Source: Daejeonella sp. H1SJ63
GTDB taxonomy: Bacteria; Bacteroidota; Bacteroidia; Sphingobacteriales; Sphingobacteriaceae
Direction: 5' to 3'
NCBI RefSeq assembly: GCF_029360775.1
Contig: NZ_JARKMZ010000020.1
Span: 62,001-126,000, forward strand
DNA length: 64,000 bases
The notes beneath the pieces are model-generated. The model did not search any database, was not told the origin of the DNA, and saw nothing but the letters and a program-made list of their open reading frames with translations. The translations under genes were made by a program, and so were the position numbers. How positions within the stretch are numbered: the first letter of the stretch is position 1; the number at the start of each line of letters is the position of its first letter. This document shows, one piece after another, positions 32,344-39,378 of this stretch.

Positions 32344-32610
32344 ATGACTAAATCCAACGTCCTGTCCATTCCGGATGAAATATTGATGAGTAAGATCTAT
32401 GTTATTCGTGAACAGAAAGTAATGTTAGACAAAGATCTTGCAGAATTGTATGGAGTTAAGGCTATACGTTTAAGGGAACAGGTAAAACGTAACAAGGAAA
32501 GATTCCCCGAAAATTTCATGATACAATTATCTGAGGAAGAGGTAGAAGTAACGATATCGCAAAATGCGATACCATCTAAACAAGCCTACACTACTCCTAA
32601 AGTCCATTGA
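32344..32610 (+). pseudogene. Truncated ORF6N-domain protein
   Basis: 88 residues matching the ORF6N DNA-binding domain: IYVIREQKVMLDKDLAELYGVKAIRLREQVKRN and RFPENFMIQLSEEEVE, then ISQNAIPSK. Full-length relatives continue well past this point; here it stops after a few unrelated residues (QAYTTPKVH). ORF6N proteins are common in phages and mobile elements. A short functional form cannot be excluded. Confidence 0.65.
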
Positions 32611-33787: not shown

Positions 33788-34510
33788 ATGTCAGAAAAAA
33801 AGATATTGATAACAGGAGCAAGCAGGGGTTTGGGCCTGGCAATATCTAACTTATTATCAAAGGAATACACATTGATATTACATGCGACACGTGAGGAAAG
33901 TTTTACCAATGTTGATCCAAAACATCATTTACTTTGCGCTGACCTTAGTGATCCGGGACAACTCAATGAATTTTGTAAACGTTTGAAAAAAGAGCACGGA
34001 GATACTCTTTACGGGGTAGTCAACAACGCCGGCATCACATTTGACAAACCCCTTATTTATCAGCCTGAAAATGAAATTGACCGCTTGCTGCAAGTAAATC
34101 TGAAAGCTCCAATCATGATCTGTAAGGCTGTTATGAAACAATTTCTTTTGAATAAAAGCGGTGTAATTATCAATGTAAGCTCATGCGTAGGTGAAACCGG
34201 CAATGCTTTTCAGGCGGTTTATTCGGCAACTAAAGCGGGTTTGGCAGCCTTGTCAAAATCTCTGGCCCGCGAAGTTTCAGCATTGAACGAAGAACACTCC
34301 ATAAGGATCTTAAGTATCGCCCCCGGTTTTATTGAAACAGATATGACAGATAAAATACCTGAAAACTATAGACAGGATTATTTAAAAGCCATTCCCGCAA
34401 ACCGTTTTGGCAAGGTGAATGAAGTTGCTGAAGTGGTTGCTTTTCTGTTATCAGACAAGGCATCATATATTAACGGAACTAATATTAATATAAATGGTGG
34501 GATATTATGA
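33788..34510 (+). CDS. 3-oxoacyl-ACP reductase (FabG-like SDR)
   Basis: 240 residues, short-chain dehydrogenase. NADP(H) loop TGASRGLG (9-16... of MSEKKILITGASRGLG), NNAG (79-82), catalytic Ser132, Tyr145 and Lys149 (NVSSCVGETGNAFQAVYSATKA) and the C-terminal GTNININGGIL typical of FabG. It would reduce beta-ketoacyl-ACP to beta-hydroxyacyl-ACP. First gene of an eight-gene block; its last 17 bases overlap the next gene. Confidence 0.88.
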   Translation: MSEKKILITGASRGLGLAISNLLSKEYTLILHATREESFTNVDPKHHLLCADLSDPGQLNEFCKRLKKEHGDTLYGVVNNAGITFDKPLIYQPENEIDRLLQVNLKAPIMICKAVMKQFLLNKSGVIINVSSCVGETGNAFQAVYSATKAGLAALSKSLAREVSALNEEHSIRILSIAPGFIETDMTDKIPENYRQDYLKAIPANRFGKVNEVAEVVAFLLSDKASYINGTNININGGIL

Positions 34511-35087
34511 TAAGGGCAAACTTGTAGAAAGCCTGTGTTCAATACATCCGAGAGAAATACTTATTGCCTACGGTCCTAAAAAGCTGCTTGTTGATAAATA
34601 TCACTGGCACTCGCCCAAAACAGGCGTTGTAGCGAGTTATACTCCTACAGATTATGATGTCGAGGATCATTTTGGCATTTTCAGGGGGGTGGACCAGATC
34701 GAATCCTTTGTGCAGGCTACTGCTGCTTCTTTATCCATGTTTTTGATCTGTCAGAAACATAATTGTGCTCCCGAGGATTTGAGGGACAAATCTGTCCCAA
34801 GCTTCATCAGTGTAGGCAACGTGAACTTTATGTCAGCTCTTGAGAAGGGCGATACTTATGTTATGCTGGGGAAAATAACATTTTATAAATTCAGACAAAT
34901 GGTTTGCGAAGGAAGAATCTACAGATGTCCTCCCGGATTAGACCTTGACGAATATTTTAAAGATTTTAACGAAGAGCGTTTACTCAAATATGATCTCTCA
35001 CCTGATTTCAAACTTATATCTGATCTCTATGATATAACAGGGCGGGAAATTGATATTGAATATTTTAGAGCAATAAACAAAAAGTAA
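34494..35087 (+). CDS. FabZ-like hotdog dehydratase (divergent)
   Basis: 197 residues. The segment YDVEDHFGIFRGVDQIESFVQA aligns with the FabA/FabZ active site: His59 as catalytic His and Glu70 in the IES position. The loop between them is three residues shorter than in FabZ (HFPGNPxxPGVxxxE), and the usual Pro/Gly pattern is lost. Later NFMSALEKGDTYVMLGKI fits the FabZ central strands. It probably dehydrates beta-hydroxyacyl-ACP in this pathway. The C-terminal 60 residues are extra compared with FabZ. It overlaps the ketoreductase gene by 17 bases. Confidence 0.75.
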   Translation: MVGYYDKGKLVESLCSIHPREILIAYGPKKLLVDKYHWHSPKTGVVASYTPTDYDVEDHFGIFRGVDQIESFVQATAASLSMFLICQKHNCAPEDLRDKSVPSFISVGNVNFMSALEKGDTYVMLGKITFYKFRQMVCEGRIYRCPPGLDLDEYFKDFNEERLLKYDLSPDFKLISDLYDITGREIDIEYFRAINKK

Positions 35088-35094
35088 ATTATAA

Positions 35095-35355
35095 ATGGAA
35101 AGACAAGAAATTATTGACGGTTTGATCGAAGTACTTAAAACCGTTAGAATGATAGAGCCTGAAAAATTAGTAGGTGTAACAGAAGAAACAGATTTTTTAG
35201 CCAATCTAAATATACCATCGTCTCAAATGATCGCTATCGTAGCAAAGGTCGAGCAAAAGTTTGACATTGAATTTGAGGACGATGATATTGATGGTTTAGG
35301 CTCAACAGTAAAAGACGTTGTCGATCTCATTTTAAAAGTAAAAGCACGTGATTAA
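35095..35355 (+). CDS. Atypical acyl carrier protein
   Basis: 86 residues, acidic, four-helix ACP pattern (TDFLANLN, VAKVEQKFDIEFEDDDI, STVKDVVDLIL). The phosphopantetheine site that is normally DSL reads Pro41-Ser42-Ser43; Ser42 aligns with the carrier Ser. So the Ser is kept but both neighbours differ. It would carry the growing acyl chain for this cluster and probably be charged by the AcpS-like enzyme encoded three genes downstream. Its 3' end overlaps the ketosynthase by eight bases. Confidence 0.82.
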   Translation: MERQEIIDGLIEVLKTVRMIEPEKLVGVTEETDFLANLNIPSSQMIAIVAKVEQKFDIEFEDDDIDGLGSTVKDVVDLILKVKARD

Positions 35356-36703
35356 AATACCTGGCAGAAAGGTGGCAGTTGTTGGTATGGGAGGAGCTTT
35401 CCCCACCTGCAGGAATCTTTCTGAATTTAGCAGCAAGTTATTTGCTAACAAAAGTCTGATCCGCACATTCGATGATGCCATGGCTTATGAGAAGCAGGTC
35501 AGATCGACAGTTGCGGGTTTTATCACGGAGCCGGAAATGGATCTGGAGGTAATTTGGGACCCTATGGAAGGTCTCTATCCGGAAACCTATGTGGATAAAT
35601 TAAACCGGATCCCGGATGCGAATTTGGCTACTGCAGATGTAGGCAGCATCTGGTCAATGCTGGCAACACAGGATGCCATAAAAATGGCGGGCTGGTCAAC
35701 AGATCTGGTTCAGTCAGAGCAAACCGGTGTGGTGATAGGATCGGGCGGTTCAGCTAATGTGATACTAAGAAACGGATGGCACAATTTTTATGTTTTTGGC
35801 AGAAAAACACGGCATTCCGGTGGTCATACAGTCGACCGGACCATGACCTATCGTGAAGCAGCCAATGTATCGGTCCTGATAAAAAGCAAAGGGGTCTGCG
35901 AAACCATTAGTTCTGCATGCGCAACCGGATTGGGTAATATTGGACACGCTTACAGGTTAATCAAATACGGGCTTCAGGACCGCGCAATAGCCGGCGGAGT
36001 AGAAAGTACATCTCTTGAAACCTTTATCGGTTTTGATGGAATGATGGTTTTAAGTCGGGGTTTTAGCCCTGAAGAAAGCTCACGCCCATTTGATATGAAC
36101 AGAAACGGCTTTGTTTGCTCATTTGGTGCAGGCATTGTAGCCCTTGAAGAGTATGAACAGGCAGTTGCCCGCGGTGCCGATATTTTAGGGGTAATTGACG
36201 AGTATTTTAATAATTCAGACGGTGATGGTGATATGTTCTATCCATCATTTGAAGGACAACAGAGGTTATGGAAAGGAGTACTTGCAGGATCTGACGAAAG
36301 ACCAGATGTTGTTAAAGTGCATGGTACATCTACACCCTCAGGTGATGCTGTTGAACTGTTAAGTGTGGTTGATGCTTTGGGTGAAGAAGGCTATCATGTA
36401 TCAGCCCCAAAATCACAATTTGGACATATGTTGGGAGGTGCTGGTTCGGTAGAATTCATAACTGCATTACTGATGCTTAAAGAACAAAAGGTATTGCCTT
36501 GTTTAAATTCTCAAAACCTCAACCCGGAACTGGAAACGTTCCAGAAAAGTCCGGAATGGACCGGTCCGATGAAGCCTCTGGCTGCTTACCGGCACTTACT
36601 TCCGCAGGAAAGTTTTTCAAAACCAATTAATAGCATTGTTTGCCTTAATTACGGCTTTGGTGGTACCAACAGTGCTTTAAAATTGTCAAAATATGATAAA
36701 TAA
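35348..36703 (+). CDS. Beta-ketoacyl-ACP synthase (KAS I/II-like)
   Basis: 451 residues from GTG 35348. The thiolase-fold triad is complete: Cys191 (ETISSACATGLGNIGHA), His325 (VKVHGTSTPSGDAVE) and His360 with Lys355 (KSQFGHMLGGAGSVEF), plus the C-terminal LNYGFGGTNSALKL. It should perform the decarboxylative Claisen condensation of acyl groups with malonyl-ACP. It is somewhat longer than FabF. No chain-length-factor partner is encoded, so it is likely a homodimer. It overlaps both neighbours (8 and 11 bases). Confidence 0.9.
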   Translation: MIKIPGRKVAVVGMGGAFPTCRNLSEFSSKLFANKSLIRTFDDAMAYEKQVRSTVAGFITEPEMDLEVIWDPMEGLYPETYVDKLNRIPDANLATADVGSIWSMLATQDAIKMAGWSTDLVQSEQTGVVIGSGGSANVILRNGWHNFYVFGRKTRHSGGHTVDRTMTYREAANVSVLIKSKGVCETISSACATGLGNIGHAYRLIKYGLQDRAIAGGVESTSLETFIGFDGMMVLSRGFSPEESSRPFDMNRNGFVCSFGAGIVALEEYEQAVARGADILGVIDEYFNNSDGDGDMFYPSFEGQQRLWKGVLAGSDERPDVVKVHGTSTPSGDAVELLSVVDALGEEGYHVSAPKSQFGHMLGGAGSVEFITALLMLKEQKVLPCLNSQNLNPELETFQKSPEWTGPMKPLAAYRHLLPQESFSKPINSIVCLNYGFGGTNSALKLSKYDK

Positions 36704-37508
36704 TTCGGGTAAGGTTGCGGTAATTTTTGGGGTCAGGAATGAAGAATCCATCGCTTATAATATTGCAGTAAAACTACATCAGTCGGGCTGCAAAATTGCC
36801 TTAAGCTATGTTGAAGATACGCGTGATGAAGTGATATACCTGCTTGAAAAACTGGGCCTTGATACCCAACTTGCCATGCAGGTTGACGTAAGGGATGAAA
36901 CTCAGATCAGCAGCTTTTTAAATGCTGTATACAAAACCCATGGCCCTATCGACTACATTTTACATGGAGTTGCTTATGCGAATACCAGGGTACTTTGTTC
37001 AAACTTCATTGGCAGTACAGAACCCATACCGGCTTACATCGATATTCCTTTCGAGGATCTGATGGATTCATTTAATATCAGTGCCTATTCTCTCTTAAGA
37101 ATAGCCCGGGTGGCTGAAAATCTGTTACAAACAAACGCATCCATACTAACCCTAACCTATAACGCGGCTAACAGAGTTATTCCGCAATATGGAGGAATGG
37201 CTATCAATAAGGCAGCTCTTGAAAATATCATGCTCTACCTGGCAAGCTATTTTCGTAACAAACAGGTACGTGTAAATGCCATTTCTGCCGGACTGGTTAT
37301 GACCACATCCTCCGGCGGCATCAATGGTGTGCGCAAAATGCGTAAATTAGGCAAGTATATGGCACCATTAGGGAATATTGATGCAGGTGATGTTGGCGAT
37401 GCTGCACTGTATTATTTCTCTGATCTTTCAAAAAAGGTAAGCGGCAACATTCATTTTGTTGATGGCGGATTTAACATTATGGCAGTACCTGTTATAGATG
37501 CAGAGTGA
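36693..37508 (+). CDS. Enoyl-ACP reductase (FabI-like)
   Basis: 271 residues, divergent SDR of the FabI class. NAD(H) site GVRNEESIAYNIA, DYILHGVAYA, and the FabI triad Tyr156, Tyr166 and Lys173 in LTYNAANRVIPQYGGMAINK (E. coli Tyr146, Tyr156, Lys163). It reduces trans-2-enoyl-ACP, so the pathway product is a saturated or partly saturated chain rather than a polyene. C-terminal NIHFVDGGFNIMAV. Overlaps the next gene by 11 bases. Confidence 0.88.
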   Translation: MINNSGKVAVIFGVRNEESIAYNIAVKLHQSGCKIALSYVEDTRDEVIYLLEKLGLDTQLAMQVDVRDETQISSFLNAVYKTHGPIDYILHGVAYANTRVLCSNFIGSTEPIPAYIDIPFEDLMDSFNISAYSLLRIARVAENLLQTNASILTLTYNAANRVIPQYGGMAINKAALENIMLYLASYFRNKQVRVNAISAGLVMTTSSGGINGVRKMRKLGKYMAPLGNIDAGDVGDAALYYFSDLSKKVSGNIHFVDGGFNIMAVPVIDAE

Positions 37509-37899
37509 ACTGGAAATATCTGTAAACCAAATAATCGCACAGCGATCATTTGCTGTGGGTAATGATTTGGTGCACATAGAAAACTTCAGACTTTCACTCA
37601 GCGACCTTTTCAAAAACAAGGTTTACACCCCTTCCGAGATAGCTTACTGCGAAAGCTTCGATGATTCTTTGCAGCGCTATGCCTCAACCTGGGCAGCTAA
37701 AGAGGCCGTTTATAAAGCAATTAAACAGCTCGATACCTCGACTCTGGGATGGAAAAAAATAGAAATTAACAGAGCCCAAAAAGCAGGAATGCCGACTGTG
37801 GTATTACCCGCTCATTTCAAAAATTTCGAGGTGAGCCTTACCATATCACATGATGGTGAATATACCTGGGCACTGGCATTAATTAATGCAATAGTTTAA
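37498..37899 (+). CDS. AcpS-like 4'-phosphopantetheinyl transferase
   Basis: 133 residues, the length of AcpS. Metal/CoA sites: VGNDLVHIENF (Asp23) and WAAKEAVYKAIK (Glu69), with ISHDGEYTWALALI at the end. It transfers phosphopantetheine from CoA to the ACP Ser. Its place inside the cluster suggests a dedicated enzyme for the atypical ACP, since the housekeeping acpS is expected elsewhere. Confidence 0.85.
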   Translation: MQSELEISVNQIIAQRSFAVGNDLVHIENFRLSLSDLFKNKVYTPSEIAYCESFDDSLQRYASTWAAKEAVYKAIKQLDTSTLGWKKIEINRAQKAGMPTVVLPAHFKNFEVSLTISHDGEYTWALALINAIV

Positions 37900-37903
37900 T
37901 CAA

Positions 37904-38725
37904 TTGACCTCACATTTTTATAAAACCGACTTTGTTGACCTCCATTATTATAAATATGGAACAGGTGAGGAGCACATGCTTTGTTTTCATGGTTTTGGTA
38001 TGCATGGTAAACAGTTCATTACCTTAGAGCCGAACTTGGGAAACAAATATACATTCTGGGGCTTCGATCTTTTCTTTCATAAAGCAACCAGACTGAAAGA
38101 TCAGACTTTGGATACCATCAAAACCGGATTAACAAAAAAGGTGCTTGCAGATCTGATTATGGAATTTTGTACAGCCCATAACATTCAGCGTTTTTCGGTA
38201 ATAGGCTATTCTATGGGTACTCATTATGCTACAACTATCGTTGAAGAGCTCCCGGAAATGATTAATGAATATATCGTAGCAGCACCATCGTCCATTAAAC
38301 CGGGAAATATTCTCAGGTTTTTTAGCAGGAGTAAATTCGGGAATAAGATCATCGAGAGAGTATCTTTAAGTGAGAGTGCAATGGTTAACATGTTAACCCT
38401 GTTCAGAAAGGCTCGAATCATAGATGCAGAGGGCTATAGAATTCTGCTAAAAGAAATTGAAACCCATGAACTAAGATTTAATCTCTATGCCAATTTAACC
38501 TATCTGCGATTTTTAATAACAGATGAAGCAAAACTTATAGATACATTAAACCGTTATCCTATCAGGAGTGTCTTTATCTTCGGAAAACGTGATAATGCTT
38601 ATCCAATTAAGATTGGTAAACCATTCCTGGCCAAAATTAAAAATGCAGAAATATTTAATTTGGATGAGGGACACGAATTGATCAATAAACGTTTTGCCAA
38701 AGTTTTAGGAGATTTGTTAGTATGA
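37904..38725 (+). CDS. Alpha/beta hydrolase
   Basis: 273 residues, starting at TTG 37904. Oxyanion segment FHGFGMHGKQF, nucleophile elbow VIGYSMGTHYA, an acid in FGKRDNAYP and the His in LDEGHELI form a complete triad. In this block it could act as a thioesterase that releases the chain, or hydrolyse/esterify the final lipid (inference). Its stop overlaps the start of the acyltransferase gene by four bases. Confidence 0.83.
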   Translation: MTSHFYKTDFVDLHYYKYGTGEEHMLCFHGFGMHGKQFITLEPNLGNKYTFWGFDLFFHKATRLKDQTLDTIKTGLTKKVLADLIMEFCTAHNIQRFSVIGYSMGTHYATTIVEELPEMINEYIVAAPSSIKPGNILRFFSRSKFGNKIIERVSLSESAMVNMLTLFRKARIIDAEGYRILLKEIETHELRFNLYANLTYLRFLITDEAKLIDTLNRYPIRSVFIFGKRDNAYPIKIGKPFLAKIKNAEIFNLDEGHELINKRFAKVLGDLLV

Positions 38726-39378
38726 TCATCAAATCAAAACCCTTACCACTGTTCTGGTTAAAAGCAGGAGGTTACTTACTGACAAAATTTTTCAGGATAT
38801 TTCACTTTAATAAACTGATTATCAAGCCTGTTGAGATAAAATCAAATCATTCCTATATTTTATCCTGCAATCATTTCAGCTTTGGTGATGGCTTTTTAGG
38901 TTTTTATCTGGCCTATCAGGTACTGATTAAACAGGGTAAAATGAAAAAACTCTATATCATGTCCCTGAAAAAGCAAATGGAAATGAACTGGTGGCTCAGG
39001 TATCTTGGTTCCTTTTCGGTTGAGCCTGGAAAATTATCAGTAAAAGAAAGTTTAGCTTATGCAGCTGAAATATTGAGTGAACCCGGTAATTTATTGCTCT
39101 TTTATCCGCAGGGAAATCTGGAAAGCTGTCATATCAGGACTATACAATTTCAGGACGGCTTAGCAGAAATAGTACCACAGATAAAGGGCAAATGCCAATT
39201 GTTATGGAGCAGCAATATTGGTGAGTATTTTGAAAGCTTAAGGCCTTCAGTTTATTTTAATATGCTCGATTGCGGCACCTCTGAGGATTTCGATTTTGAG
39301 CGCTTACAGCAACAGGTAAACAGGCATCACAAAGAATCACTCAAACAGAACATAAGATTTACGAAGGAGGAAGATTAA
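38722..39378 (+). CDS. PlsC-like lysophospholipid/1-acylglycerol-3-phosphate acyltransferase family protein
   Basis: 218 residues. LPLAT signature CNHFSFGDGF (the H-x4-D motif) near residue 49 and the FPEG-like block FYPQGNLES near residue 129. The N-terminus has a hydrophobic anchor. It would transfer the acyl chain made by the cluster to an acceptor such as a glycerolipid or an amino-acid lipid; the acceptor is unknown. Last gene of the eight-gene block. Confidence 0.83.
   Translation: MIIKSKPLPLFWLKAGGYLLTKFFRIFHFNKLIIKPVEIKSNHSYILSCNHFSFGDGFLGFYLAYQVLIKQGKMKKLYIMSLKKQMEMNWWLRYLGSFSVEPGKLSVKESLAYAAEILSEPGNLLLFYPQGNLESCHIRTIQFQDGLAEIVPQIKGKCQLLWSSNIGEYFESLRPSVYFNMLDCGTSEDFDFERLQQQVNRHHKESLKQNIRFTKEED

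Follow-up and report, generated by a model that had tools for sequence, protein, structure and literature searches.

The rhizobial acpXL-lpxXL cluster is, in the part of its description drawn on here (PMC11901934), a co-directional set of six genes beside the primary synthase, comprising a dedicated acyl carrier protein (ACP), FabZ, two β-ketoacyl-ACP synthases (KAS; fabF), a dehydrogenase, and the acyltransferase LpxXL; that part names no FabG, FabI, or AcpS. Here, we describe an eight-gene cluster at positions 33788-39378 of a 64,000-nucleotide window (the whole stretch of DNA analyzed) of Daejeonella sp. H1SJ63 (assembly GCF_029360775.1, contig NZ_JARKMZ010000020.1, positions 62,001 to 126,000; all coordinates below are window positions). 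Like the rhizobial set, it is co-directional, combines its own ACP with a FabZ-type dehydratase, a KAS, and an acyltransferase, and accompanies a separate primary synthase. Unlike that set, it has one FabB-like KAS, its own FabG, FabI, and AcpS, a hydrolase, and an acyltransferase of the PF01553 family, and it has no such dehydrogenase, so it is not a member of the rhizobial type. In its logic, acpXL-lpxXL is the nearest described system. We found no description of the Daejeonella cluster in the open-access literature; subscription papers lay outside this scope, so an earlier account may exist.

A second likeness is to the fabA-fabB-fabI operon of Paracoccus ferrooxidans (CP038202), in which FabA, FabB, and FabI are adjacent, types that also occur in eight FabA-bearing relatives of our cluster described below. 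The KAS and FabI of the window are nearer to the Paracoccus proteins than to the FabF and FabI of their own genome (35% versus 27% and 36% versus 29% identity, respectively). However, identity reaches only ∼35%, and the stretch of the Paracoccus operon seen contains no ACP, FabG, FabZ, or AcpS of its own. Its hydrolase shows no detectable relation to a Zobellia hydrolase, and the KAS proteins of our cluster form a separate clade on long branches; we regarded a link to this alphaproteobacterial operon as suggestive and did not adopt it. Plasmid pFER4 of P. ferrooxidans (1.46 Mb; L122) carries fabA, fabB, and genes for an alpha/beta hydrolase and an enoyl-ACP reductase near one another on the same strand. 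The OlsB/OlsA and GlsB/GlsA aminolipid pathways also rely on PlsC-family O-acyltransferases and make non-phospholipids, but the part of the source used here describes no dedicated synthase for them (PMC11631085). The genome of the window, moreover, has no PF13444 gene (the control was positive in 2 of 14 genomes), and we rejected a glycine- or ornithine-lipid reading. PF13444 is the domain of aminolipid N-acyltransferases.

The Daejeonella cluster is a second fatty-acid synthase beside a housekeeping set. Elsewhere in the genome (3.65 Mb, 56 contigs, 100% complete) lie acpP (C45:22815), fabF (C45:23082), a third KAS-like gene (C1), a fabI gene encoding the FabI catalytic residues (C25:8936), and, also on C45, a plsC gene named from its sequence. 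The one FabA/FabZ-family domain in the genome is part of a 476-aa open reading frame (ORF) on C37, the length of an LpxC-FabZ fusion, and two further phosphopantetheinyl transferases (PPTases) are encoded by open frames of 216 and 227 aa. A sequence-only reading of the window had placed the cluster apart from primary fatty-acid synthesis, and these genes bear that out; the possibility that the cluster is itself the primary synthase is ruled out by the copies of acpP, fabF, and fabI found elsewhere.

Eight ORFs, all on the + strand, encode in order FabG, a FabZ-fold dehydratase, ACP, KAS, FabI, an AcpS-type enzyme, an alpha/beta hydrolase, and a PlsC-like acyltransferase. Five of the seven junctions overlap, by 17, 8, 11, 11, and 4 bases, and at the remaining two the genes stand 7 and 4 bases apart, counts that depend on mechanically called gene starts; the co-directional, mostly overlapping eight-gene set seen by the sequence-only reading was thus recovered. 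Gene identities were drawn from Pfam and NCBIfam with their cut-offs, the PDB, Foldseek, and VIA, and Pfam agrees with the assignment for all but the hotdog protein (7/8 genes). One genome scan yielded 76 related loci whose KAS proteins are 57% to 94% identical, and catalytic residues were compared between the window and those of the loci that had a called ORF within the length limit set (KAS rows exclude L083 and L093).

The FabG-like 3-oxoacyl-ACP reductase (33788..34510, 240 aa), a short-chain dehydrogenase/reductase matching PF13561/PF00106 with 3oxo_ACP_reduc as its best NCBIfam family, below cut-off, has Asn80, Ser132, Tyr145, and Lys149 in 72/72 rows. The FabI-type enoyl-ACP reductase (36693..37508, 271 aa), whose best matches are PRK06505 FabI in NCBIfam, again below cut-off, and FabI in the PDB (E = 8e-45), has Tyr156, Tyr166, and Lys173 in all 73 rows. 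Asp23 and Glu69 of the AcpS-type 4'-phosphopantetheinyl transferase (37498..37899, 133 aa; PF01648, with TIGR00556 above cut-off) are likewise found in 73/73 rows. The KAS (35348..36703, 451 aa, GTG start; PF00109/PF02801) has Cys191, His325, Lys355, and His360 in 75/75 rows. It scores 227 bits against FabB in NCBIfam (PRK07967), short of the cut-off of 630, and 216 against FabF, and it is 33% identical to Escherichia coli FabB, 35% to Paracoccus FabB, 31% to E. coli FabF, and 27% to the FabF of its own genome. The residue at what we take to be the acyl gate is Gly in 61, Ser in 9, and Ala in 5 of the 75 rows; FabB has Gly at this position and FabF Ile. In a tree of 22 rows with long branches (the window, 16 of the 76 loci, and five reference KAS), the 17 cluster KAS formed a separate clade (support 100/98) outside FabB and FabF. 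The earlier call of a KAS I/II-like protein therefore stands as to a condensing enzyme and can be sharpened to one slightly nearer FabB than FabF, though outside FabB in the tree.

The dehydratase (34494..35087, 197 aa) is a less obvious member of the set. Its His59, Arg64, and Glu70 are present in 74/74 rows, and it gave nothing above the Pfam cut-off (no PF07977) and no NCBIfam match. A 41-sequence profile matches FabZ (E = 0.0027), and the predicted structure (predicted local distance difference test score [pLDDT] 93.6) finds FabZ both by Foldseek (E = 5.8e-8) and by VIA (Z = 18.7; 1.9 Å over 134 residues). The loop after the catalytic His, before the Glu, is three residues shorter than in the aligned FabZ. 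The protein thus has the hotdog fold of FabZ with catalytic His and Glu and lies outside the PF07977 sequence family. A match to the telomere protein TEN1, below cut-off in Pfam and at an E value of 0.28 in the PDB, was taken as a chance one; the model settles the fold.

Together, KAS, FabG, the FabZ-fold dehydratase, the enoyl reductase, and the ACP make up a complete elongation cycle with its catalytic residues. The condensing and reducing enzymes had been said to keep these residues, and across the cluster they are kept in every row compared, bar one gap at the hydrolase His; judged by these residues, the enzymes look active. FabD and FabH are not among the eight genes, and the rest of the genome was not searched for either.

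Two proteins depart from their housekeeping counterparts in ways that may bear on the fate of the acyl chain. The ACP (35095..35355, 86 aa; PF00550 above cut-off) has Pro41 and Ser42 in 77/77 rows, outlying loci included, where E. coli ACP has Asp-Ser. The residue after Ser42 is Thr in 67 rows, Ser in 9, and Ala in 1, followed by Glu (68 rows) or Gln (9 rows), so that the site reads P-S-S-Q in the window and P-S-T-E in most relatives, versus D-S-L-D in E. coli; the canonical AcpP motif D-S-L at the phosphopantetheine serine is absent. PPTases and partner enzymes read the ACP serine motif, and the Pro-Ser site would explain why the cluster has an AcpS-type transferase of its own. Site and transferase together suggest that this ACP is insulated from the housekeeping synthase. 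The PlsC-like acyltransferase (38722..39378, 218 aa; PF01553 at 24.7 bits, cut-off 23; no NCBIfam match) has His51 and Asp56 of the HX4D motif in 62/62 rows. Its motif III reads PQ(G)..E, with Gln130 and Glu134 in 62/62 rows and Gly131 in 58; the housekeeping PlsC of the same genome has FPEG, and the cluster enzyme carries Gln in place of that Glu. Motif III (PEG) of PlsC holds the substrate phosphate, and the replacement suggests that the acceptor is probably something other than lysophosphatidate.

All eight genes occur in the same order in 58 of the 76 loci. The other 18 consist of the eight FabA-bearing loci, three without the hydrolase only, three reduced loci, and four cut by contig ends (L032, L067, L071, and L083). 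Ratios of nonsynonymous to synonymous substitution (dN/dS) for every gene were 0.047-0.107 between the window and its close relative L022 and 0.035-0.146 between the window and a second close relative, L026, with dS above 1 for some genes; comparisons with the more distant L030 and L053, wholly or partly saturated, were not used. Because the order holds in 58/76 loci and dN/dS against L022 and L026 stays within 0.035-0.146, the eight-gene arrangement is not a matter of chance. The three reduced loci (L034, L037, and L038) lack FabG, hydrolase, and acyltransferase and have unrelated genes immediately 3' of KAS; in L038, FabI and AcpS are found further on.

By record title, 60 loci are assigned to Sphingobacteriaceae genera or Sphingobacteriales, 11 to unspecified Bacteroidetes/Bacteroidia, and five to other groups. 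Of 399 family genomes, 71 contain the dehydratase, covering 7 of 25 genera, as do 3 of 395 genomes of a phylum sample, all three from the family of the window and one of them its own genome. The cluster is therefore spread across the family but patchy. A plasmid search returned KAS matches in 1252 records, every one below 60% identity, and no match to the dehydratase or to the acyltransferase type of L090 (described below).

Eight relatives carry an extra FabA-like gene between FabG and the dehydratase (L079, L084, L085, L087, L089, L090, L091, and L092); they come from two Zobellia, Aquimarina, Taibaiella, and less specified Bacteroidota. The assignment draws on PF07977 in the three scanned, on tblastn matches of 43-69% in the others, and on the presence of the FabA-type His and Asp in all seven sequences that were aligned; tblastn gave no FabA hit in the other loci. 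None of the eight shows a window-type hydrolase or PlsC-like gene, although L087 ends 0.3 kb after AcpS. Instead, the operon is headed by an alpha/beta hydrolase of another branch in the flavobacterial loci L085, L089, and L091 (Pfam run on L085), which have no detectable PlsC-like gene, and by a mutually related protein of 225-259 aa in L084, L087, L090, and L092. The upstream gene of L079 has no Pfam or NCBIfam match. A related TPR protein lies beside the operon in L079, L087, L090, and L092, and in L090 it ends in a LuxR-type helix-turn-helix. In a FabI tree, the FabA-bearing loci fall outside the remaining loci (forks 92/96, 88/88, and 83/75), which suggests, at moderate fork support, that FabA was lost once; a KAS tree does not place them. 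The constant part is FabG, dehydratase, ACP, KAS, FabI, and AcpS, and we take the variable part to be a release enzyme, which suggests that the release step is exchangeable.

The protein heading L090 matches PF21926 (FeeM) at 21.7 bits, below the cut-off of 27. None of the four head proteins matches an NCBIfam family at an E value of 0.01, and a profile of the four finds no PDB chain at E values up to 1; a search of the 395 phylum genomes found nothing, although, being without a positive control, it shows little. The L090 model, built from four sequences (pLDDT 80.4), has LasI as its best Foldseek match (E = 2.3e-8), and by VIA the top ten rows are without exception acyl-homoserine lactone (AHL) synthases or FeeM (Z = 16.2-14.2), other GNAT enzymes following from 13.3 down; EsaI, also an AHL synthase, ranks 32nd amid ordinary GNAT enzymes. 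The L090 protein is thus predicted to adopt the AHL-synthase/FeeM variant of the GNAT fold while falling outside the curated sequence family. Its likeness to the FeeM/LuxI N-acyltransferases (PDB 2g0b, 1ro5, 5w8a, and 6wn0) lies in this predicted fold; identity is 9-16%, and the enzyme is not part of the window's cluster. The head proteins of L084, L087, and L092 are its relatives by sequence, the fold having been modeled in L090 only. All four share an E-x2-R pair, which resembles the LuxI signature.

We propose, as the probable if by no means settled explanation, that the cluster is a specialized second type II synthase with an insulated carrier, making its own acyl chain for an acceptor probably other than lysophosphatidate. 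The AcpS-type enzyme would charge the cluster's own ACP, on which the FabB-like KAS would carry out extension with malonyl units; each reductive cycle would be finished by FabG, the FabZ-fold dehydratase, and FabI, giving a fully reduced acyl chain kept from mixing with the membrane-lipid pool. The PlsC-like enzyme would then move the chain to its acceptor, and the hydrolase may trim or proofread. Malonyl transfer and the starter would be borrowed. A saturated chain is expected in the window because FabI is present and the only FabA/FabZ-family domain of the genome is in the 476-aa ORF on C37. Most simply, the cluster would be read as a dedicated synthase whose insulated carrier bears a single acyl chain destined for a single transfer reaction; a dedicated acyl transfer as the task of the core is suggested by the eight outlying loci, which keep the core without the hydrolase and PlsC-like gene, four of them with the LuxI/FeeM-like family. 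The sequence-only reading did not extend to several features with a bearing on the product: the FabA-bearing relatives, the exchange of release enzymes, and the changes in the ACP site and the PlsC motif.

Several points weigh against this proposal. L041, L047, and L054 lack the hydrolase and keep the rest, so the scheme does not depend on this enzyme. L034 and L037 retain only dehydratase, ACP, and KAS, and L038 retains these with FabI and AcpS. FabB-type enzymes are poor at starting chains, and the cluster lacks a starter enzyme. A secreted TPR gene found in 47/78 loci, mostly adjoining the operon, is not beside the window's copy, and the scheme does not account for its role; we left it out because the window's genome has a single match to it, at 40% identity and on a different contig. 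The case for a non-phosphate acceptor is made by motif III alone, given the role of that motif in PlsC. Finally, we came across neither a product nor a transcript nor an enzyme assay for any cluster member.

A broader, tentative picture, doubtful as a whole, would join the window to its FabA-bearing relatives. It would make the cluster an undescribed platform of Bacteroidota, a portable insulated synthase with the carrier code P-S-T rather than D-S-L and a swappable release enzyme. In the older form, FabA and the FabB-like enzyme would yield an unsaturated chain for an N-acyltransferase of the LuxI fold, encoded next to a TPR-LuxR-type regulator, possibly an acyl signal system with its own acyl supply. 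Toward the Sphingobacteriaceae, FabA would have been lost and the PlsC-like enzyme would have taken over, giving a saturated acyl conjugate of a non-phosphate acceptor.

The hydrolase (37904..38725, 273 aa, TTG start; PF00561) invites another explanation, namely, that it is a thioesterase releasing a free or secreted fatty acid or a derived signal, with the PlsC-like enzyme acting on something else. A thioesterase or an ester hydrolase is possible: of the Ser-Asp-His triad, Ser103 and Asp230 are present in 61/61 rows and His257 in 60, the remaining row being a gap, and the three loci headed by the other-branch hydrolase lack a detectable PlsC-like gene. Yet three loci dispense with the hydrolase and keep the PlsC-like gene, four outlying loci are headed by the LuxI/FeeM-like family instead, and the two hydrolases are barely alike (E = 0.013). 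We consider free-acid release unlikely.

Still less likely, in our judgment, is that the cluster duplicates primary synthesis as a back-up or for certain conditions, for example as an inhibitor-tolerant FabI with its partners, and feeds ordinary phospholipids. It does have all the enzymes of the elongation cycle and a PlsC-family acyltransferase, and other bacteria are known to have copies of FabI that escape inhibitors. For such a function, however, an ACP with an altered site and a dedicated AcpS would be needless, motif III departs from housekeeping PlsC in every one of the 62 rows, the cluster is patchy (71/399 family genomes), and four relatives pair it with the LuxI/FeeM-like family.

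We give equally little credence to a modified lipid A acyl chain as the product, which the rhizobial cluster brings to mind through the same logic of own ACP, FabZ, KAS, and final acyltransferase, as far as the source used describes it (PMC11901934). A gene for an LpxR-family lipid A deacylase (PF09982, run on L070) lies two genes past the operon in six loci (L068, L069, L070, L073, L076, and L077). It is, however, near only 6/76 loci and on the opposite strand, and the cluster acyltransferase belongs to the PF01553 PlsC family and is not demonstrated to be a late lipid A acyltransferase.

That this is a miscalled aryl-polyene, flexirubin, or dialkylresorcinol cluster is scarcely credible, as had been argued before from its enoyl reductase: FabG does match flexirubin FlxB, at 176 of the 340 bits of the cut-off, but aryl-polyene and flexirubin clusters are not known to have an enoyl reductase, pair KAS with a chain-length-factor partner, and carry aromatic starter enzymes, whereas the full reductive cycle is present here, FabI, with its three catalytic residues in 73/73 rows, would reduce a polyene, and the eight genes include a single KAS without such a partner and lack an aromatic starter enzyme.

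If the proposal of a specialized second synthase is right, a single cell would operate two synthases whose separation depends on the identity of the carrier protein, and it would offer a natural case for testing how this identity is recognized. The cluster may make an unstudied kind of lipid, and it would point to unknown lipids or acyl signals in the culturable genera Mucilaginibacter, Pedobacter, and Daejeonella. The four LuxI/FeeM-like relatives would provide a concrete candidate for acyl-amide synthesis that curated sequence families miss.

The genes flanking the operon in the window are ordinary: a YifB-type chelatase gene, named from its sequence, upstream, and MsrA, M16 peptidase, RhaT, and aldolase-dehydrogenase genes downstream. 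Promoter-like and terminator-like sites were at or below the chance level, and the Bacteroidota promoter pattern was rarer than chance, with no instance near the operon. A short ORF6N-domain ORF (32344-32610) lies between the chelatase gene and the operon, a position occupied in Daejeonella-like relatives by a secreted TPR gene of ∼500 aa. Two Pedobacter loci carry a toxin-antitoxin pair within the operon, between AcpS and the hydrolase (L063:10609-11571 and L082:10615-11576); Pfam identifies the L063 pair as an Xre/MbcA/ParS antitoxin and a RES-domain toxin, and the L082 pair looks alike. In L043, L058, L065, and L086, three of which are titled Mucilaginibacter, a large nonribosomal peptide synthetase-polyketide synthase gene (families run on L065; L058 judged from sequence) lies one gene past the operon and extends from ∼13.8-14.3 kb to the end of the locus.

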